A stretch of 64,000 bases of DNA from Nitrospira sp. CR1.3 (lineage in GTDB: Bacteria; Nitrospirota; Nitrospiria; Nitrospirales; Nitrospiraceae): NCBI GenBank assembly GCA_014055525.1, contig WIAH01000009.1, forward strand, positions 1-64,000, read 5' to 3'. Shown piece by piece: positions 34,258 through 43,832 of this stretch. Position numbers and translations under genes: made by a program. Numbering within the stretch: the first letter of the stretch is position 1; every line of letters begins with the position of its first letter. The notes under the pieces were generated by a model. The model made no database searches, was not told the origin of the DNA, and saw only the letters and a list, made by a program, of their open reading frames with translations.

Positions 34258-34632
34258 TCATGATTTCGCGGGAGGCTCTAAATCGCGATCCGCCGTAAAC
34301 ACAAAGACCTTCTCACCGATCTGCGCATCGATATCCATAAAGAGGGCCAGCACCTTGGCCTTGATGATGTCGGCGACTTGTTCAAAGAGCCGATCGCGCC
34401 CCTGAGCAATGAGCGTTTGGCGGATTCGTTTGACCATGTCCACGCCTTCGGGCGTCTTGGCTAATTGCCGCTCGGCTGGCGTGAGCACGCCCTTCAGGCG
34501 CACGACCACGAGATCTCGCACGATAAATGCCCGCACGTCGCTGGGGCCCCGCCCCATGAACTCCTGCTCGAACTTGATGATGGCGGTGCGGATCGCGCCT
34601 TCGGTCTCGCCCTTGGTCCGTTCATTGTCCAT
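34258..34632 (-). CDS. DUF2294-family protein
   Basis: A 124-residue soluble protein recognised as DUF2294 by the order FEQEFMGRGPSDVRAFIVRDLVVVRLKGVLTPAERQL (cited in part) and ending in FVFTADRDLEPP. No function is established. The start is ATG 34632, preceded by GGGGAG; the much longer open frame (to about 35085) is antisense to the NuoL-like gene. It is divergent from the carbon-concentration operon with about 370 bases between. Confidence 0.82.
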   Translation of the reverse strand: MDNERTKGETEGAIRTAIIKFEQEFMGRGPSDVRAFIVRDLVVVRLKGVLTPAERQLAKTPEGVDMVKRIRQTLIAQGRDRLFEQVADIIKAKVLALFMDIDAQIGEKVFVFTADRDLEPPAKS

Positions 34633-34779: not shown

Positions 34780-35003
34780 TTGACTCTGTCGAGACACATG
34801 CCGGATAAGGGACTGCATATTCGTCCGATGGTGTTCCCTGTCCGCGATGGCATGAGACAGGCAGAACCATCGTGATGGATGCAACCAAGGCCGTAGGGTG
34901 ACCAGTTCGCGTGAGACGCGAGACCGGTTGCAGTACAAGCCAACCAAGCGTCTCGACGAGCAGTCGAGCCTGCGGTTGGCTTTCGTGTTTTCGGGGGTGT
35001 GCA
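34780..35003 (+). promoter_or_regulatory. Promoter and structured leader of the DAB-type operon
   Basis: The candidate promoter TTGACT (34780-34785) is followed after 18 bases by GATAAG (34804-34809). Downstream is a nested hairpin: AAGCCAACC (34937-34945) pairs with GGTTGGCTT (34974-34982), and CTCGAC/GTCGAG (34952-34957/34963-34968) pairs inside. It is followed by TTTCGTGTTTT, then GGGGGTG and the ATG at 35004. The stem plus U-rich tail could be an attenuator. From 34633 to 34779 I see no other element. Confidence 0.5.
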
Positions 35004-36710
35004 ATGCCGATGTCAGCCGTGCTGCTTGTGCCGCTGCTGCCTCTGCTGGCCGCACTGATGGTCTCAGCGGGCGGTGAGGCGTCACAACGAACGCGCGCGA
35101 TGCTCGCCGCCGTGCCGATCGGCACGGCCTTCGTCGGTGCGGTCGGCACGCTCTATCTGGTCGCCACGCAAGGTCCGATCACGATCCGATTTTACGATCC
35201 GGCGTCCCTGGCGTCGCTCGCGTTTCCCATCGGGTTCTACGTGGATCGGCTGAGCGCGGTCATGATGGTCTTGATCTCCGCGGTCGGGACGATCATCTAT
35301 ACCTATTCTCTCCGCTACATGTATCAGGAGGCGCACGAGTTCCGGTATCTCGCGCTGATCGGGGTTACCACGTTCGTGCTGCTCTGCCTGGTCTCCAGCG
35401 CGAACCTCATGATGCTGTTCCTGCTGTGGCAGGTCCTTAGCTATCTGCTGTATCTCCTCATCCACAACCACACACACGCCGGCACCCTGGAGAGCGCGTT
35501 CCGCATGTTCGCCATCTTGAGGATCGGCGACGTCGCTTTTCTCGCCGGCCTCGCGCTGGCCCATTCGCTGTACGGCACCCTGGAGTTCCACGAGTTGTTC
35601 GAACGGGCGGCGGCCTCTACGGCGACGGTGTCGCTGCTGCCGGGGATTGATCTCGACGGCACGACCGCCGTGACGCTGCTGCTCTTCATCGGCGGCATGA
35701 GCAAGTCGGCGCAGTTTCCTCTCTTCGTCTGGCTCCCCCGTTATCTCTATGCACCCACGCCGGTCACGGCGCTGCTGCACGCCGGCATCATCAATGCCGG
35801 CGGCTTTCTGATCAACCGCTTGGCGCCGCTGTTCGGCCTCAGTCCGACGACGTTGCACATCGCCTTCGCTATCGGCACGCTCACGGCCATACTCGGCGCT
35901 ACCATGATGCTGACCCAGAGCGACATCAAGAACCAGCTCGGCTTCTCCACGATCGGTCAAATGGGCTATATGATCATGGAATGCGGCCTCGGCGCCTTTT
36001 CGCTCGCGGTGTTCCATCTGATCGCCCACGGGCTGTTCAAGGCCACGATGTTCCTGAACAGCGGGAACGTCATCCAGAAGGCGCGCCAAGAACCTCATTT
36101 CCCCCACGCGGACCACGAGGAGGAAGAACGAAGCTTCTCTCGCCTCACCTGGACGACCGGATTTGCGACGACGCTGTTCATTCCGCTGGTAATCTTATTG
36201 GTCACGCATGGTCTGCTGCGCATCCCGCTGCTGGAATCCCAGGGGACCGTCATCTTCCTCTTCTTCATTTGGGTCACGTCGTCGCAGGCCATCTTGACAC
36301 TGACGCGCCTTCGGCAGGTCGAGTCGTGGAAGGTGTCCGTTGCGATGCTCGTCACGCTCTTGTTCGTCGTCTTCATCTATCTGTTCGCCGTCGAGTCCTT
36401 TACGGCGTTCCTGTACCCCGATCCAGAAGAAGTCGCCTCCTACTTCAAGGCCGCCGCGCTGCCGAGCTGGCTCTTCGAGTTGATGGTGGTCTTCGCCACC
36501 GTGCTGACCGGTCTCGGTTGGGCCTACCTCTACTTGCGTGCCCACGGTCAGACGATGCGGATGCCCGTCTGGATTGAGGCTATGAGGCTCCGCCTCTACG
36601 TGCTGTTCATGCATCGGCTCTACGCAGACCAGGCCTATGAACGACTGGGCCGCACCGCCATCCAATTCCTCAATCGCTTCGACAAGCGTGCGCAGGGACG
36701 GGTGCCTTGA
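35004..36710 (+). CDS. NuoL/DabB-like antiporter subunit, copy 1
   Basis: A 568-residue polytopic protein (about 14-16 helices) related to the complex I subunit NuoL and to DabB, the membrane partner of DabA. Conserved channel parts include LLFIGGMSKSAQFPLFVWLP (about 228-247), LLHAGIINAGGFLI and STIGQMGYMIMECGLG. It would couple proton or cation flow to CO2 hydration by DabA. An in-frame extension of 31 residues upstream lacks a ribosome site, whereas GGGGGTG precedes this ATG. It is the first gene of the set and is closely similar to the next. Confidence 0.88.
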   Translation: MPMSAVLLVPLLPLLAALMVSAGGEASQRTRAMLAAVPIGTAFVGAVGTLYLVATQGPITIRFYDPASLASLAFPIGFYVDRLSAVMMVLISAVGTIIYTYSLRYMYQEAHEFRYLALIGVTTFVLLCLVSSANLMMLFLLWQVLSYLLYLLIHNHTHAGTLESAFRMFAILRIGDVAFLAGLALAHSLYGTLEFHELFERAAASTATVSLLPGIDLDGTTAVTLLLFIGGMSKSAQFPLFVWLPRYLYAPTPVTALLHAGIINAGGFLINRLAPLFGLSPTTLHIAFAIGTLTAILGATMMLTQSDIKNQLGFSTIGQMGYMIMECGLGAFSLAVFHLIAHGLFKATMFLNSGNVIQKARQEPHFPHADHEEEERSFSRLTWTTGFATTLFIPLVILLVTHGLLRIPLLESQGTVIFLFFIWVTSSQAILTLTRLRQVESWKVSVAMLVTLLFVVFIYLFAVESFTAFLYPDPEEVASYFKAAALPSWLFELMVVFATVLTGLGWAYLYLRAHGQTMRMPVWIEAMRLRLYVLFMHRLYADQAYERLGRTAIQFLNRFDKRAQGRVP

Positions 36711-36830
36711 CGAAAGTTCTGACAGCGTATTAATGATGAGCTATTCTATGATCAGACGGAGCGTGCTCGTCCCGACGACTTCCGTCGTGATGCGAATCGT
36801 CATTCCCTCTCGTAGGGCTGCGAGGTCATC

Positions 36831-38531
36831 GTGCTGCTCGTGCTGGCCATTCCGCTGCTGCTGTTTTTGGCCGCAAGCCTCGTGCTGATCGGCCCCGATC
36901 GCTCGCGGTATGCACGCGCGCAGATCGCGGCCTATTTCGTCGGCGCCGCCTTCGTCAGCGCCACTGTCCTGCTATTCGTCGTCGCCAACCGGGGCCCGCA
37001 AACCCTTCGTTTGTACGAACCCGCCTCGCTCAGCTCCCTCGCATTTCCGATCGGCTTCTACGTCGATCGGTTGAGCGCCGTCATGATGACGTTGATCACG
37101 GGCGTCAGCACCGTCATTTATTGCTACTCGACGGGCTACATGTACCAGGATCGCCACTTTCGCCGGTATTTGGCGATGATCTGCTTCACCGATTTCGTGC
37201 TGCTCTGCATGGTCTCCAGCGCGAATCTCATGATGTTGTTTCTGTTCTGGCAAATCCTCAGCTACCTGCTCTACCTCTTGGCGCACAACCACGGACATGC
37301 GGGCACACTCGAGGGGGCGTTCAAGACCTTTACGCTGCTGCGCGTGGCCGACGCCGCGTTCCTCACGGGGATCGTGCTCGCCTATCACCTCTACGGGACG
37401 CTCGAATTCCAGGACCTGTTCGCACGGGCCGCCGAGACGCCGATCACCCTGTCGTTCTGGCCCGGAGGGGAGATCAGCGCCGCAACGGCCGTCGCCCTGC
37501 TGCTGTTCGTCGGTGCGATGGGAAAGTCGGCGCAGTTTCCGTTGCATCTGTGGCTGCCGGGATCGCTGTACGCGCCGACTCCTGTGCACGCGCTGCTGCA
37601 CGCCGGCATCATTAATGCCGGCGGCTTTCTGATCAACCGCTTGGCGCCGCTGTTCGGTCTCAGTCCGACGACGTTGCACATCGCCTTCGCCATCGGCACG
37701 CTCACGGCCATCCTCGGCGCCACCATGATGCTGGCGCAAAACGACATCAAGAAGACGCTCGGCTTCTCCACGATCGGCCAAATGGGCTATATGATCATGG
37801 AATGCGGCCTCGGTGCTTTCTCCCTCGCCGTGTTCCATCTCATCGCCCACGGATTGTTCAAAGCCACCGTGTTCCTGAATTGCGGGAACGTCATTCACAA
37901 GGCCAGGCTGGAGCCGCACTTGCCCCATGGGGACCACGAGGAAGAAGAGGAGGCTTTCTCCTGGCTGACGTGGACGACCGGCTTCGTCACCACACTGTTC
38001 ATCCCGTTGGTGATCCTCCTCGTGACGCACGGCGTCCTGCACATTCCGCTGTTGGAGTCGCAGGGCAACGTCATCCTCTTGTTCTTCATTTGGATCACGT
38101 CGTCCCAGGCGATCCTGACGCTGATGCGCCTGCGTGCCGTGGCGTCCTGGAAGGTGTCGGCCACGATGCTGGCCATCCTCTCCTTCATCGTCTTCATCTA
38201 TCTATTTGCCGTGGAATCGTTCACCGCGTTTCTCTATCCAGACCCGGAGGAGGTCGCCTTCTATTTCAAGGCCGCCACGCTGCCGAGCTGGATCTTCGAG
38301 TTGATCGTCGTCCTCACCACGCTGCTGACCGGTTTCGGCTGGTCGTACCTCTATCTGCGGGCCCATGACCGGACGGTGCGAATGCCGGATTGGATCGACG
38401 GACTGCGGATCCGTCTCTATGTGCTGTTTATGCACCGGCTGTACGCGGACGAGTTCTACCGAAAGCTCGGCCAGTTCATGCAACAGGCGGCGCATCGAGT
38501 CGATAAGCGTGCTCAAGGATGGGTGCGATGA
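36831..38531 (+). CDS. NuoL/DabB-like antiporter subunit, copy 2
   Basis: A 566-residue paralogue of the preceding gene, aligned end to end. It has the same LLFVGAMGKSAQFPLHLWLP, LLHAGIINAGGFLINRLAPLF and IGQMGYMIMECGLGAFSLAVF regions, and the DPEEVAFYFKAATLPSW segment near the end. The middle part is almost identical to copy 1 even in DNA, while the ends differ more. It starts with GTG (GAGG six bases upstream) after a 120-base gap. It probably forms a complex with DabA, perhaps as a heterodimer with copy 1. Confidence 0.88.
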   Translation: MLLVLAIPLLLFLAASLVLIGPDRSRYARAQIAAYFVGAAFVSATVLLFVVANRGPQTLRLYEPASLSSLAFPIGFYVDRLSAVMMTLITGVSTVIYCYSTGYMYQDRHFRRYLAMICFTDFVLLCMVSSANLMMLFLFWQILSYLLYLLAHNHGHAGTLEGAFKTFTLLRVADAAFLTGIVLAYHLYGTLEFQDLFARAAETPITLSFWPGGEISAATAVALLLFVGAMGKSAQFPLHLWLPGSLYAPTPVHALLHAGIINAGGFLINRLAPLFGLSPTTLHIAFAIGTLTAILGATMMLAQNDIKKTLGFSTIGQMGYMIMECGLGAFSLAVFHLIAHGLFKATVFLNCGNVIHKARLEPHLPHGDHEEEEEAFSWLTWTTGFVTTLFIPLVILLVTHGVLHIPLLESQGNVILLFFIWITSSQAILTLMRLRAVASWKVSATMLAILSFIVFIYLFAVESFTAFLYPDPEEVAFYFKAATLPSWIFELIVVLTTLLTGFGWSYLYLRAHDRTVRMPDWIDGLRIRLYVLFMHRLYADEFYRKLGQFMQQAAHRVDKRAQGWVR

Positions 38532-39832
38532 TGGGGACCACTACCGCATCCCTCATCGCGGTCGGCATTCCCCTCGTGGGCGCGCTGCTGAGCTTCGCCT
38601 GCTGGTCGATTCCGGACTGGCTCAAGGTCTGTGCGATCGCGACGGCCGTGGTCAGTCTGGGCGCGATCGGAGGGCTGGCGGGATTTCTGGCTGGCCCGAC
38701 CGAGGGATTCCTTTTCCTCGTGCTCTTGCCCCTCGCAGCGGTCGTCTCGCTCCTCGGCCAGCCTGTCCATCCCCTCTATCGATCGTCCTCGGTGATGACG
38801 TTGCTCTTCCTCGGATTGGGCCTCGGTGTCCTGACGCAGAACGGACCGGTAGGACACATCCTGCTGGCCACGATCGGTGGGCTCATCGGCCTGCTGCTCT
38901 ACCGCCACCATTCGCCGCTCTGGCCGATGTCCTGGTGGGGCATCGGGACCTTTGGGTTCAGCATGGTGATGGCGGTTGCCGCCGCGTTTGTCTATCCGTC
39001 CCTCTCGGCTATCGCGTCCCTGTTGGCCGGCGCCGTCTTCCTGCCGCTGGCCCCATTGCACGGGGGGTATTTGGCGGCGCTGACAAGATTGCCGGGTAAC
39101 CTCCCCTCGTTTTTGTCGGTTTTGCTCCCGGTCATCGGCCTTCACAGCCTCACCGCGACGATCGGGGTTGTGCCGGATGGTCTCGCCAGCGCCGTCTCGG
39201 TGACGGCAGTCGTCGGTTCGCTGTACGGAGCCGTGAAAGCGCTGGCCCAATCGCGCGTGCGGTTACGCCTTGCCTACGGCAGTCTCTCTTTTCTGTGCCT
39301 GCTGTGGTGGTTCGCAGCATCGGCACGGGGTACGGGACCAGGCGCCGCGGTCTTTACCGCCGCCGTGGCGCTCGTGACGAGCGGACTGCTGATCGCCTGG
39401 CAGGTAGTCCGTTCGCGATACGGCGACGATGTGGACCCGCAATCGATCAGCGGGCTGGCGGCGGGTATGCCGCACTACGCGGTCCTGCTCTCGCTGCTTG
39501 GATTGGCCGCGATCGGGTTGCCGCCGTTCGGCGTCTTTGCCGGTTTTATCGGGCTGCTGCTGGCTCCGACGGTGTCCTTTTCGATCGCACTCGTCTGTGT
39601 CCTGCTCGTCTGGCTCGCCGCATCGTGGTACATCCTCGACCTGGTGCAACGGCTGCTCTTTGGGCCGCGCCGATCGGACCTCCGGCTTGCCGATCTGGGT
39701 TGGGCCGAATTCGCTTCTCTGCTCCTCGTCGTGCTGGCCTTGGTCATGCTGGGCGTGCTCCCCGCGCATCTGTTCGGACCAGGGGCAATGCCGACGACCG
39801 CTGAAACAGGATGGTTCGCATGGATGAAGTAG
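38528..39832 (+). CDS. NuoM/N-like membrane subunit
   Basis: A protein of about 434 residues with roughly 12-14 helices. It is a diverged antiporter-like subunit: VFLPLAPLHGG (about 175-185) takes the place of the usual PFHxWLP, and LLGLAAIGLPPFGVFAGFIGLL (about 323-344; cited as a range) recalls the NuoM/NuoN GLPPFxGF motif. It starts ATG 38528 inside the stop of copy 2 (ATGATGA), so it is translationally coupled. A third antiporter-like protein is an addition to the simple DabA-DabB pair. Confidence 0.8.
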   Translation: MMGTTTASLIAVGIPLVGALLSFACWSIPDWLKVCAIATAVVSLGAIGGLAGFLAGPTEGFLFLVLLPLAAVVSLLGQPVHPLYRSSSVMTLLFLGLGLGVLTQNGPVGHILLATIGGLIGLLLYRHHSPLWPMSWWGIGTFGFSMVMAVAAAFVYPSLSAIASLLAGAVFLPLAPLHGGYLAALTRLPGNLPSFLSVLLPVIGLHSLTATIGVVPDGLASAVSVTAVVGSLYGAVKALAQSRVRLRLAYGSLSFLCLLWWFAASARGTGPGAAVFTAAVALVTSGLLIAWQVVRSRYGDDVDPQSISGLAAGMPHYAVLLSLLGLAAIGLPPFGVFAGFIGLLLAPTVSFSIALVCVLLVWLAASWYILDLVQRLLFGPRRSDLRLADLGWAEFASLLLVVLALVMLGVLPAHLFGPGAMPTTAETGWFAWMK

Positions 39833-42800
39833 CCCGCTCGATCGACATCGAAACCAGACGGATGGAGCTGCGCGGCGTGGTCAAGCTCGCCGGCGAAGTC
39901 ATCGCGCAATATTGGCCCATGCGGACCTTCGTCCATCACAATCCACTCCACAGCCTTGAATATCTGCCGTTCGAAGAAACCGTGCGGCGCGGCAAGCAGT
40001 TCATGGGCGGCGACGGTTATCTGCCCAGCCATCAGTATCGCGCGTATCTCCGGTCGGGCCGCATCAGGATCCAGGACCTCGACGCGGCATTGACGCCGCT
40101 CGTCCGGGACAAACAGGTCTCGATCGGATCGCGCACGCTGACCCACGGCGAGGTGCTGCGGGCCTGTCTCTCGGAGGGACTCTGTACGCCGGTCGTCGAA
40201 CCGCTCGACGCGCCGTTGGCCGAATCCTCGCAGGAGCTGATCGACCGGCTCGCCGAGAAATTGGCTCCCGTCGCGACATTTCCGGATCTGCGCGAGCGTG
40301 TCCGGGCCATCGCAGAAGGCGATCAGGCGGCACTCGGCCGCTGGTTGACGCTCTCGCACTGGTGCGATGACACGTTCGGGACGGACATCGTCCGGCAGAT
40401 CAACGACCAAATGATCAAGTGGTGCGAGGCTTTCCTGGACGAGGGCCATGCGACCTGGCCCATGCCGGGGCGGGAAAAAGGATTGTACGACGCGTGGAAG
40501 GCGCTCGCGGTACACGAGTGGTCTCCCTGCGGCATCGCGGACAGCAAACGCAAGATCAAGCAACTCCCCGAGTACCCGGAAGACGCGCTGCTCGAAAGCC
40601 TCGACCTGCTCGGCATCCCTGCCAAGCTGCGACAGGATTATCTGTCGCTGCAGTTGACCGCGCTGCCAGGCTGGGCCGGCTTCATCAAGTGGCGCGCAGA
40701 GGAGCGAGATTATCCCTGGCAGCAACTGTACCCTGTCGGTCTCGTGAAGTTTCTCGCGATTCGCCTTTGGTACGCACGCGAGCTGGTGCAGAAGACCTGC
40801 CAAGAGGAGCTGGGCATCGCGGGGCGTTACGACACCGTAACCGCGTACATGCGGACCAATCCAGACGAATACTATCTGAGACGGCAGCGCGTGGCGGGGC
40901 GGTTGCCCGCGCTCTATGCGGAAGAAGTCGATCGGCTGCGGCACCAGAAACATGACGGATGGGGCAGGGTGATTGAGCGGTACCGGGCCGAGGTCGTCCC
41001 ACGCCAGCACGCCGCGGCCAGGCGAGGCATGGCGAAACGGCTGATCGCCTTGGTTCGGTCGTTCGAGATCGATCCCGTGGTACTCGCCGACCAAGCACCG
41101 AGCGATCTCAAACAGCTTATCGACTGGATCGAAGCGTTCCCAGAGTCCGACCATGGTCCGGTCTGGCTCAAGGCTTTTGAAGCGGGCTATCAGGAATCGC
41201 TAATTGGAAAACTCGCGCGTAACGCGCGTGAGGGGGAGGCGACGCGAGCCCCTATGATCAGTCGTCCCTACTCGCAGTCGGTCTACTGCATCGACGTGCG
41301 ATCGGAGCCATTCCGCCGCCATCTCGAATCGGTCGGGCCCCACGAAACCTTCGGCTTCGCCGGATTCTTCGCGGCCTTCATCCGCTATCGCGCCTGGGGC
41401 AAGGAGCACGAGACGGAACAGTTTCCGGTCATCATGCGGGCCAAGAACGAGGTGCGGGAAATCCCCCGAAGCTACTTCGATCAGGCGGTGTCGAAGCACG
41501 AGGTGCGGGCCAAATGGGTTCACGCAGGCCACACGCTCCTGCACGATTTGAAAGAAAACGTCGTCACGCCCTATGTCATGGTCGAATCGTTGGGCTGGTT
41601 CTACGGCCTCCCGATTTTCGGCAAGACGCTGATTCCGTCGCTCTACCGGCGCTGGACCGCTTGGCTGCGGGGCCTGTTCGTTCCGGCGCTGGCCACGACG
41701 CTCACGGTTGACAAGCTCGCGCCGGCCGAAACGGCGGAAATGCTGGCTGCCGAGCAACAGGCCCTCGTCAGAAAAGCGCTTCGGGAACGGATCGGGTTGC
41801 GCAGCTCACGCATCACGCCCGCGTTGGTCGAAGGCCTTAGGCAGCGGGCCTTGAGTGGATCGGACGAATCGGATCCGGCTTTAACGGAAGCCGCGGGCCA
41901 GGCTGGCCTCTCGGCAGAGGCGGTGAACGAGTTGGTCGGCCTCTTGCGCCGCCGCTACGACCTCAACGCGCGGGCCGCCTCGCGGCACAAGGAGCGGATC
42001 ACGCGCACCGGCTTTACGCTCGATGAGCAGACACTGACGGTCGACACGGCCCTCCACATGATGGGGTTGACCAACCACTTCGCGCGCCTCGTCCTGTTCT
42101 GCGCGCACGGCAGCACGTCGGACAACAATCCGTATGAATCGGCGCTCGATTGCGGCGCCTGCGGCGGCAATGAGGGCAGGCCGAACGCCCGCGTCTTGGC
42201 CATGATGGCGAACAACCCGCGTGTCCGCGAGCGGCTGCGCAAGACAGGGATCGAGATCCCGTCGGATACGCACTTCCTCGCCGGCCAAATCGATACGACG
42301 ACGGACGACGTCCGCCTGCTGGACCTCGAGGACGTCCCGCCGACGCATCGCGCGGACCTCGCGCGCCTCCAGGAGGATCTCAAGAAAGCCTCCGCGCTCA
42401 CGAGCCGGGAACGGTGTGCGCGCTTTCCCGACGTTCAGGAAGCCTTGGAGGAAACTCCGGCCGAAGCGCATGTCCGTCGTCGGAGCGTCGATTGGAGCCA
42501 AGTGCGTCCTGAGTGGGGGTTGTCCGGGAATGCGGCCTTCCTGATCGGGCGGCGGGAGCTCACGAAAGGGCTCGATCTGGGCGGGCGCGTCTTCCTGCAC
42601 TCCTACGACCATCGGGAAGACCCGAGCAACCGTCTCCTCGAAGTCCTGTTGACTGCCCCGCAAGTCGTCGCTCAGTGGATCAACATGGAGCACTATTTTT
42701 CGGCGGTCGACAACGAGGTATACGGCAGCGGCAGCAAGATCTACCATAACGTGGTCGGGCGGCTCGGCATCATGTCGGGACCCTGGAGCGATCTCCGCCT

Positions 42801-43029
42801 GGGATTGGCCAGACAGACGGTCATGAATGGGGAGGTCCCGTACCACGAACCGATGCGGCTGTTGACCATCATCGAGGCACCCCGTGAACGGATCGACAAG
42901 CTGATCGTGCGACACGAAGTGTTGCGGCACTACTACCACAACGAGTGGGTGCACCTCGTCGCACTCGATCCGGAAGACCAGGTATGGTATCGGTATCGCC
43001 CGAGCGGGACGTGGCGCCCGATCGAATAG
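39820..43029 (+). CDS. dabA: DabA (DUF2309) inorganic-carbon transporter subunit, long form
   Basis: A protein of about 1069 residues; the characterised DabA has about 830. The beta-carbonic-anhydrase-like zinc site is present: Cys490 and Asp492 (YCIDVRSEPFRR), His763 (CAHGSTSDNNPYES) and Cys778 (CGACGGNEG); the 15-residue His-Cys spacing equals the known protein. It should hydrate CO2 to bicarbonate vectorially at the inner face, driven by the NuoL-like partners. Extra length lies before the Cys and between the two motif pairs. The ATG at 39820 is chosen for its AGGA spacing; 39811 is possible. Confidence 0.93.
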   Translation: MDEVARSIDIETRRMELRGVVKLAGEVIAQYWPMRTFVHHNPLHSLEYLPFEETVRRGKQFMGGDGYLPSHQYRAYLRSGRIRIQDLDAALTPLVRDKQVSIGSRTLTHGEVLRACLSEGLCTPVVEPLDAPLAESSQELIDRLAEKLAPVATFPDLRERVRAIAEGDQAALGRWLTLSHWCDDTFGTDIVRQINDQMIKWCEAFLDEGHATWPMPGREKGLYDAWKALAVHEWSPCGIADSKRKIKQLPEYPEDALLESLDLLGIPAKLRQDYLSLQLTALPGWAGFIKWRAEERDYPWQQLYPVGLVKFLAIRLWYARELVQKTCQEELGIAGRYDTVTAYMRTNPDEYYLRRQRVAGRLPALYAEEVDRLRHQKHDGWGRVIERYRAEVVPRQHAAARRGMAKRLIALVRSFEIDPVVLADQAPSDLKQLIDWIEAFPESDHGPVWLKAFEAGYQESLIGKLARNAREGEATRAPMISRPYSQSVYCIDVRSEPFRRHLESVGPHETFGFAGFFAAFIRYRAWGKEHETEQFPVIMRAKNEVREIPRSYFDQAVSKHEVRAKWVHAGHTLLHDLKENVVTPYVMVESLGWFYGLPIFGKTLIPSLYRRWTAWLRGLFVPALATTLTVDKLAPAETAEMLAAEQQALVRKALRERIGLRSSRITPALVEGLRQRALSGSDESDPALTEAAGQAGLSAEAVNELVGLLRRRYDLNARAASRHKERITRTGFTLDEQTLTVDTALHMMGLTNHFARLVLFCAHGSTSDNNPYESALDCGACGGNEGRPNARVLAMMANNPRVRERLRKTGIEIPSDTHFLAGQIDTTTDDVRLLDLEDVPPTHRADLARLQEDLKKASALTSRERCARFPDVQEALEETPAEAHVRRRSVDWSQVRPEWGLSGNAAFLIGRRELTKGLDLGGRVFLHSYDHREDPSNRLLEVLLTAPQVVAQWINMEHYFSAVDNEVYGSGSKIYHNVVGRLGIMSGPWSDLRLGLARQTVMNGEVPYHEPMRLLTIIEAPRERIDKLIVRHEVLRHYYHNEWVHLVALDPEDQVWYRYRPSGTWRPIE

Positions 43030-43138
43030 GGATGAGACCATTGCAGGTCAAGGTTAAGGTCGAGCAAACATGCCTGTTTGACTCAGCCTGAGCCTCAGCA
43101 TTAACCCTCTGAATGAAGGCCGGGAAAGGAGTTTGTCG

Positions 43139-43477
43139 ATGGGTTTGACATTGCATCCGATGAAGGAAATCCGAGTGATCGTCGCGGGAGAACACCGAGC
43201 GTTCGTGACCGACTTGCTGGATCGGGTCAATGCCACCGGCTACACCATCATCGGGAACGTGTCCGGAAAGGGCCACCATGGAGTGCGCGAGGCCCACTTC
43301 ATGTTCAGCGAGCAAGAGAGCCTCGAGATGATCATGACCGTCGTGCCGGAAGAAAAAGTCGAGCCGATCCTGGCCGGTCTGCGACCGCTGTTCGAACGGC
43401 ACTCCGGCGTCATGTTCGTAGCCGATGTGACGGTCAGCCGGGAGGAATACTTCGGCAAAAAGGGCAAAGGCGCGTGA
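43139..43477 (+). CDS. P-II-like signal protein linked to the DAB operon
   Basis: A 112-residue protein of the P-II-like (SbtB/CPII) group: a short beta-alpha-beta ferredoxin-like fold beginning KEIRVIVAGEH, GYTIIGNVSGKGHHG (T-loop region, about 36-50), and the MIMTVVPEEKVEPILAGLRP segment. True GlnB motifs at the T-loop are missing. These proteins bind adenine nucleotides or bicarbonate and regulate carbon transporters. It follows dabA by 109 bases with AGGAG seven bases before the ATG, so regulation of DabA/B is a fair inference. Confidence 0.8.
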   Translation: MGLTLHPMKEIRVIVAGEHRAFVTDLLDRVNATGYTIIGNVSGKGHHGVREAHFMFSEQESLEMIMTVVPEEKVEPILAGLRPLFERHSGVMFVADVTVSREEYFGKKGKGA

Positions 43478-43562
43478 AGCGCCGCTTCGCCGGACCGCAC
43501 TTGTCTTCGCGACCTGAACCTGGCTAGAATGAGCCCCTCTTGCCGGGCTGAAGGAGTGAAGG

Positions 43563-43832
43563 GTGAAGGGGTTACGCTTTGAAAGAATCGGCCAAGGCCG
43601 GTACTACAACGTGGTGTTCCATCTCGGAAGCACCTATGTGCCGGTCAGCGACGAGACCGTGGAAGAGCTGAAGAAGCAGAGCCTCCTTCCCGCTGAACGA
43701 TTCCTCGACCTCCTCATCGACCGCGTCGGGTACTCGTCCTACCTCAAGGATCAGATCCGGACGGAGCTCAAATCGTCCGGCGATCCGGTCACGCAGATCA
43801 CGGTGCTGCAGGGGGCGATCAGAGAACTGTAG
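43563..43832 (+). CDS. Small hypothetical protein after the DAB operon
   Basis: An 89-residue soluble protein starting with GTG (AAGGAG nearby). The sequence RIGQGRYYNVVFHLGSTYVPVSDETVEELK suggests a beta-rich start, and a helical C-terminal half follows; I recognise no family. It lies 85 bases after the P-II-like gene on the same strand and could be the last cistron of the carbon-uptake operon. Confidence 0.55.
   Translation: MKGLRFERIGQGRYYNVVFHLGSTYVPVSDETVEELKKQSLLPAERFLDLLIDRVGYSSYLKDQIRTELKSSGDPVTQITVLQGAIREL

Follow-up and report, generated by a model that had tools for sequence, protein, structure and literature searches.

A maintained pair of DabB-like genes in a probable DAB1-type inorganic-carbon uptake operon of Nitrospira sp. 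CR1.3

The stretch of DNA analysed here, called the window, comprises 64,000 nucleotides of Nitrospira sp. CR1.3 (contig WIAH01000009.1, positions 1 to 64,000), and belongs to a genome of 3.46 Mb in 35 contigs with a completeness of 92.65%. It carries an operon which, judged by homology, belongs to the DAB family of CO2-uptake systems, as an earlier note on this DNA had proposed. On balance we favour, with moderate confidence, the reading that it encodes a variant of the DAB1-type inorganic-carbon uptake complex with two alternative DabB subunits, regulated by P-II. Homology, residue conservation, phylogeny, gene order and the association of a DabA insert with P-II, all observed here, form the basis of this reading. 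The novelty is genuine but modest: a DAB1-type operon in which two DabB genes have been maintained. The row that the note had described, i.e. two NuoL-like genes, a shorter antiporter-like gene, a long DabA and a P-II-like gene, was found again with Pfam matches, and all frames across the operon are intact. From left to right, the genes are:

34258-34632, minus strand, divergent from the operon: MpsC-like protein (PF10057, Pfam 2.5e-32)
35004-36710, plus strand: DabB copy 1, NuoL-like, 568 amino acids, FIRST lineage (PF00361, 149 bits; PF00662)
36831-38531, plus strand: DabB copy 2, NuoL-like, 566 amino acids, SECOND lineage (PF00361, 168 bits; PF00662)
38519-39832, alternative start 38528, plus strand: third membrane subunit (gene 3), NuoM/NdhD fold (PF00361, 28.6 bits, cut-off 21.5)
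39811-43029, plus strand: DabA, long type, 1072 amino acids (PF10070, 895 bits)
43133-43477, start TTG 43133 or ATG 43139, plus strand: P-II-like protein (PF00543, 80 bits, 1.4e-22)
43563-43832, plus strand: small conserved protein, 89 amino acids (relatives beside P-II in 14 of the 60 loci L042-L101)

Both NuoL-like proteins fall in the DabB clade (ultrafast bootstrap, UFBoot, 100), on its DAB1-type branch (96). The tree was midpoint-rooted and took in DabB2, the complex I subunits of this genome and an Mrp set; among these, the complex I NuoL proteins of the genome (L002 and L004) lie outside the group made of DabB and the MrpA of locus L146. Related loci were compared in a set of 60 (L042-L101), hand-picked from search matches and not random, and in a wider survey of the best 80 of 580 confirmed places. 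Tandem DabB pairs were detected in at least 28 of 118 genomes of the family (6 of 7 in the genus of the window, 13 in g2, 8 in g5 and 1 in g144), a lower bound with matches listed down to near E 1e-139. These 28 include genomes with a partial copy (G214, G314, G334) and one with a stop in one copy (G216). Gene 3 and DabA follow the pair in 16 of the 16 tandem loci fetched, the window included and L066 and L145 being nearly the same, so that the DabB-like genes are co-conserved with DabA, a pattern on which the earlier note had made its proposal depend. The gene order that it wanted sought elsewhere is indeed widespread with one DabB; its tandem form is not. We conclude that the sole peculiarity of this operon is the duplication of DabB in tandem, which was encountered in one family only and there in just a part of it. 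Locus L065 (genome G238), where one NuoL is broken by a stop, was left out of the 16; it has a single DabB gene with one in-frame stop, among neighbours that are otherwise readable.

In a tree built without the core block described below, the FIRST and the SECOND copies each form a group of their own (UFBoot 61 and 77); as this holds across genera g1 and g2, the duplication is older than both. Some relatives have kept just one of the pair. The single DabB genes of L092, L100 and L119, each with MpsC directly upstream, are nested within the SECOND group (own clade, 100), from which loss of the first copy follows. That of L108, also with MpsC directly upstream, clusters with the FIRST-type DabB of L059 and L150 (98). 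A few placements are weak: L064 and L115 pair together (81) and join SECOND at 53, and L048 joins FIRST at 72.

The two copies of the window are 73% identical overall at the amino acid level, and this value rises to 98% in residues 251-300 and 90% in residues 301-350. The regions concerned are:

35754-36053, plus strand: channel-core block of copy 1 (residues 251-350), with a near-identical counterpart in copy 2
37575-37874, plus strand: channel-core block of copy 2, putative gene-conversion partner by amino acid identity and fourfold sites

Fourfold sites are identical between the window copies at 26 of 33 positions in residues 251-300, compared with 100 of 195 elsewhere (51%). For residues 251-350 the corresponding figures are 54/58 versus 78/162 (48%) in L042, and 47/55 versus 81/172 (47%) in L043. 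Intermediate identity in residues 251-300 was found in L059 (25/35), L066 and L046 (19/31 in each case), and no recent conversion in L044 (15/30), L062 (14/31) and L061 (9/26). Pure selection as the cause of the identity is ruled out for the window, L042 and L043 by this excess in the core; as some loci lack recent conversion, constraint must act on the DabB core too. Conversion of the core is thus recurrent, lineage by lineage, on top of strong constraint. Near-identical GC-rich hairpins, flagged as terminator-like, lie in the core block of both genes (35780-35802 and 37601-37623); they are probably just conserved coding sequence.

Eleven sites of the DabB2 proton path were chosen from the cryo-electron microscopy paper on DAB2 (PMC13144422). 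They read QRDKTHKSHHK in 16/16 FIRST copies, QRDKHHKSHHK in 16/16 SECOND copies and IRDKSHKSHHK in DabB2. R182, D185, K235, H260, K310, S316, H339, H343 and K347 are kept in the 16 FIRST and the 16 SECOND copies, and at site 151 the Glu of NuoL is absent from both, as it is from DabB2. The site of DabB2 Ser256, whose replacement by Ala impairs DAB2 (PMC13144422), is Thr in all 16 FIRST and His in all 16 SECOND copies, and is one of six fixed differences between the lineages. In the window it corresponds to Thr255 of copy 1 and His253 of copy 2, with numbering from 35004 and 36831. With this contrast at a known proton-path site, the natural pair lends itself directly to experiments on the coupling of proton flow to CO2 hydration. 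Could the second copy serve dosage or redundancy only, kept similar by gene conversion and devoid of a distinct function? We find this quite unlikely, as the separate lineages have persisted across g1 and g2 and the six fixed differences reach a tested path site, even if the 73% identity with its converted core, and the loss of one copy in some relatives, are what such an explanation would predict.

We turn to DabA, which is homologous to DabA2 of Halothiobacillus neapolitanus (PDB 9rd0_A, E 2.4e-106). Its length is 1072 residues from ATG 39811 and 1069 from ATG 39820, the value given before. The zinc ligands, the Asp-Arg dyad and the finger glutamate, whose roles are known from the DAB2 structure (PMC13144422), are kept as C493, D495, R497, E592, H766 and C781 in the 1072-residue numbering; the ligands Cys490, Asp492, His763 and Cys778 noted earlier correspond to Cys493, Asp495, His766 and Cys781. 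Eight residues were checked in 147 distinct DabA proteins (158 rows, reduced to 152 and then 147 by dropping double-listed trims and five identical proteins): they are unchanged in 139, the finger Glu is Asp in 7, and 1 protein is incomplete. The finger maps as follows:

41470-41631, plus strand: DabA membrane finger, residues 554-607, by alignment (Glu592 corresponds to DabA2 Glu444)

The AlphaFold2 model of DabA (47 sequences; mean predicted local distance difference test, pLDDT, 85.9) places the finger helices at 554-580 and 587-607, with low to middling confidence (block pLDDT 53-84).

A vectorial hydration mechanism can be adopted for the operon from DAB2 by homology. DabA would hydrate CO2 at its buried zinc site, and inward proton flow through DabB, whose outer half-channel would be completed by the DabA finger (Glu592), would drive hydration one way, so that bicarbonate accumulates for carbon fixation. 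The P-II-like protein may sense the state of the cell and act on the complex, probably through a helix bundle that lies behind the finger. Since each DabA has one finger and the outer half-channel of DAB2 is built with it, one DabB per DabA is expected. The two DabB proteins would then compete for that finger, and the pump would exist in two versions that differ in the chemistry of the proton path, perhaps useful under different pH or proton-motive force.

The third membrane subunit would take no part in proton conduction and may instead brace the membrane part. Its AlphaFold2 model (34 sequences, mean pLDDT 92.8) has a helix pattern like that of NuoM, and its Foldseek matches are chains of NuoM/NdhD, the best at E 4.4e-11 and the top ten with TM-scores of 0.75-0.81 by query. 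In complex I, a Lys in transmembrane helix 7 and a Glu in helix 12 belong to the ion path. The Lys is absent from 34/34 gene 3 sequences (column 174, reference K204 of the T. thermophilus chain, is Leu in 18, Phe in 15 and Ala in 1), and columns 340-343 hold no Glu in any of the 34, the position of the helix 12 residue differing between two alignments (a gap, or Phe343). The product is therefore NuoM-shaped without that ion path. In the proteobacterial loci compared, gene 3 encodes about 250 residues, the C-terminal half only, compared with 437 in the window. A fusion of NuoL with gene 3 occurs in nine loci (L074, L078, L079, L081, L082, L096, L102 with its start cut, L167 and L179), so both proteins probably touch. 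Copy 2 and gene 3 of the window share the ATGA overlap reported previously (38528-38531), and 120 bases separate the two NuoL-like genes.

These data bear on another arrangement, in which DabB1, DabB2 and the third subunit stand in a row within one large complex, as in complex I: the finger would sit in one DabB and the second DabB would carry extra protons, at the cost of more proton-motive force per CO2. Gene order is constant in the 16 tandem loci, the pair always standing ahead of gene 3 and DabA; the inner half-channel residues are kept in both copies; and the fusions suggest contact between NuoL and gene 3. In its available text, the COGNAT 2017 report (PMC5700660), which describes NuoL homologue(s) with YbcC and a PII gene at the 3′ end, also proposes a possible link between the count of membrane subunits and that of ions. 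Against this stand the single-DabB operons outside and inside the duplicated clade, the one finger per DabA, used for the outer half-channel in DAB2 (PMC13144422), and the lack of the ion-path Lys and Glu in gene 3. We regard one large complex as unlikely; as some relatives have retained a single member of the pair, the second NuoL-like gene more probably encodes an alternative DabB than a further pump of the same complex.

DabA is enlarged in two places. From the zinc Asp to the zinc His there are 271 residues versus 171 in DabA2 (D353-H524), i.e. the extra 100 or so that the earlier note had reported; it had mentioned neither MpsC nor the stretch ahead of the zinc Cys, which is about 140 residues longer than in DabA2. 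From the finger Glu to the zinc His the count is 174 versus 80, i.e. 94 extra residues, and these belong to a separate element:

41704-42003, plus strand: DabA insert, residues 632-731, a predicted bundle (block pLDDT 82-92)

Five helices are predicted within residues 638-731, at the same block pLDDT of 82-92. Being hydrophilic, the insert is read as a predicted cytoplasmic five-helix bundle behind the membrane finger. A longer transmembrane finger was ruled out, as the extra residues form hydrophilic helices after the finger.

Presence of the insert goes with P-II. The span from finger to zinc strand (window columns 596-748) is bimodal, with 60-78 or 138-191 residues, and divides the 147 DabA into 128 long and 19 short forms. 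P-II lies downstream of 109 of the 128 long forms and of 0 of the 19 short ones. Of the remaining 19 long forms, nine run into a contig end, and in the other ten our rule detected no P-II. These ten are 7 orphan DabA without NuoL, plus L165, whose P-II match lies in an overlong frame and so escaped the rule, L124 (Nitrosomonas nitrosa), with a weak match upstream, and L116, which has none. The third subunit is independent of the insert: 17 DabA have an upstream NuoL, the insert and P-II and no detected gene 3, and L179, with gene 3 fused to NuoL, has neither insert nor P-II. Both observations make it less likely that the third subunit docks on the insert. The association offers a testable docking site for regulation. 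Most long forms fall into a single clade of the DabA tree, next to a short group linked to Mrp; L179 is placed inside it without support. Common descent thus explains much of the association. The P-II-like protein is identical to PDB 5d4n at 53 of 100 residues; 5d4n/5d4l we take to be CPII of Thiomonas, presumably a bicarbonate-binding protein. Literature searches on this P-II protein found no report of it.

Two further locus types were seen around these genes. The long-insert DabA without adjoining NuoL or P-II form one clade (L050, L053, L056, L088, L093, L128, L135, which is cut, and L137); in L053, L056 and L128 they are followed by a protein of about 465 residues of no known identity. A second, divergent DAB locus type has NuoL, long DabA and P-II, the third subunit being undetected (L129 of Nitrospira moscoviensis, L049, L051, L052, L057, L087, L089 and L091).

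How unusual is this set of parts? The earlier note had taken the characterised system to be one NuoL-like protein with a DabA of about 830 residues, and had seen in the window an enlarged, new multi-subunit form. The first view does not hold for all characterised systems, and the second is mostly wrong. The available text of PMC4633670 prints the H. neapolitanus DAB1 order as NuoL, a transmembrane protein, a DUF2309 protein of 1046 residues, PII/SbtB and a small protein, and dabAB1 with its interstitial PF00361 gene (pFA-DAB1) complements Escherichia coli free of carbonic anhydrase, according to the accessible part of PMC7714395. In a metagenome-assembled genome of H. neapolitanus (L169) and in Guyparkeria (L164) we found NuoL, gene 3, a long DabA with insert, then P-II, and the same plan with the same insert occurs in Halothiobacillus, Guyparkeria, Acidithiobacillus and Thiobacillus. 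To have a long DabA together with a third subunit and P-II is thus not exotic; it is the ordinary DAB1 plan, common in Nitrospira-type bacteria too, and the second NuoL-like gene is what remains unusual. The window shares with H. neapolitanus DAB1 the gene order, P-II downstream, the membrane gene between DabB and DabA, and the long DabA with the same insert (span 146 in L169, 153 in the window). It differs by its two DabB instead of one, by an interstitial protein of 437 instead of about 250 residues, and by the adjoining MpsC; DAB1 adjoins carboxysome genes (PMC4633670, in the text available), whereas RuBisCO was not found in the genome of the window. Exactly one DabB is a trait of the H. 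neapolitanus example and not a stated requirement of the DAB1 subtype; with its two tandem DabB, the window is filed as a variant of this subtype rather than a plain member. H. neapolitanus DAB2 (PDB 9rd0) is alike in DabA active site, finger Glu and DabB proton path, and differs in its description as a complex of two subunits, which includes neither a third subunit nor P-II, and in its shorter DabA with no insert and a shorter N-terminal part. Schmid 2021 is said to distinguish one-, two- and three-subunit classes.

Several observations weigh against an alternative-DabB, P-II-regulated uptake complex. A Foldseek search with the DabA model returned nothing significant: beta-carbonic anhydrases appeared only at E 0.9-2.8, and 9rd0 was absent among the 50 matches listed. 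The deep nodes of the FIRST and SECOND groups are modestly supported (UFBoot 53-77), and the DabA of L108 groups with L048 outside the tandem loci, so its single DabB may have another history. Only 3 of the 6 fixed differences lie at or beside the 11 path sites, positions that account for 27 of 281 conserved columns (P = 0.013). Retention of the pair in at least 28 of the 118 genomes indicates that it is useful, and joint assembly would explain this equally. Insert and P-II may share descent rather than function, being mostly confined to one clade, with the 7 orphan DabA having the insert and no P-II. Finally, in the accessible part of PMC9080137, a DUF2309 (DabA-family) gene of Leptospirillum raised chromate and peroxide tolerance in E. 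coli.

This last result belongs with a view in which the operon would serve sodium/proton exchange or membrane potential, as proposed for MpsABC, or stress tolerance, and not CO2 hydration. We consider this highly improbable: zinc and catalytic residues are all kept, DAB2 failed to rescue a sodium-transport-deficient strain (PMC13144422), and DAB1 complements the carbonic anhydrase-free E. coli mentioned above. Its other arguments are that MpsAB has been argued to use sodium (discussed in PMC13144422) and that MpsC adjoins the operon. Like Staphylococcus aureus MpsABC, the window has a DabB-/DabA-like pair and the MpsC family (PF10057). However, its MpsC is divergent, on the strand opposite to the operon instead of within it, and its long DabA, P-II and third subunit set it further apart. 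MpsC has its sole match in the genome here and holds the same divergent position at 8 other tandem loci.

A different partner for DabA was seen in L146 (7962-18981, Nitrospirales), where a DabA without insert and with Asp at the finger Glu is directly followed by an Mrp antiporter operon (by Pfam MnhE, MnhG, MbhD/E, MnhB, a 4L-type MnhC-like protein and three PF00361 proteins), whose MrpA-like protein is sister to all DabB (UFBoot 100). Judged by open reading frame sizes and sequence starts, DabA-Mrp is likewise present in L147 (Woeseiaceae), L068, L070 and L076, the last three ending inside the operon. It is conceivable, though we hold it to be unlikely, that DabA is a transferable CO2-hydrating head coupled to one DabB, to DabB with a dead NuoM-like brace, to two Ser256-tuned isoforms (the window) or to a whole Mrp antiporter, the insert being a P-II docking arm that gates the head. 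In searches of the literature on Nitrospira DAB, bicarbonate transport or NuoL, and on DabA with Mrp, no description of tandem DabB or DabA-Mrp was found among the records listed, which does not establish their absence from print. A tandem DabB did not appear in the accessible text of PMC4633670, PMC7714395, PMC5700660 or PMC9080137 either. The accessible portions of two Nitrospira papers name no DAB: one lists SulP-type bicarbonate transporters and carbonic anhydrases in N. marina, with carbon fixation by the reductive tricarboxylic acid cycle (PMC8115632), the other an Mrp locus with extra NuoM/NuoL-like genes and BicA (PMC7784846).

The genome as a whole has 10 PF00361 matches, of which 7 lie on two other contigs and are taken as two complex I clusters, and 1 DabA. 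No alpha- or beta-carbonic anhydrase was found at the Pfam level at 92.65% completeness, the gamma type being untested; a cytosol devoid of this enzyme would fit with an accumulation of bicarbonate. By their spacing, the operon genes may form one transcript; a promoter scan at the operon found 3 against 2.2 expected, no better than chance. The 89-residue protein downstream of P-II has no family match in Pfam or NCBIfam. A duplication opposite to that of the window was noticed in L174 (Nitrosomonas eutropha), where one NuoL and gene 3 are followed by DabA, P-II, DabA and P-II.

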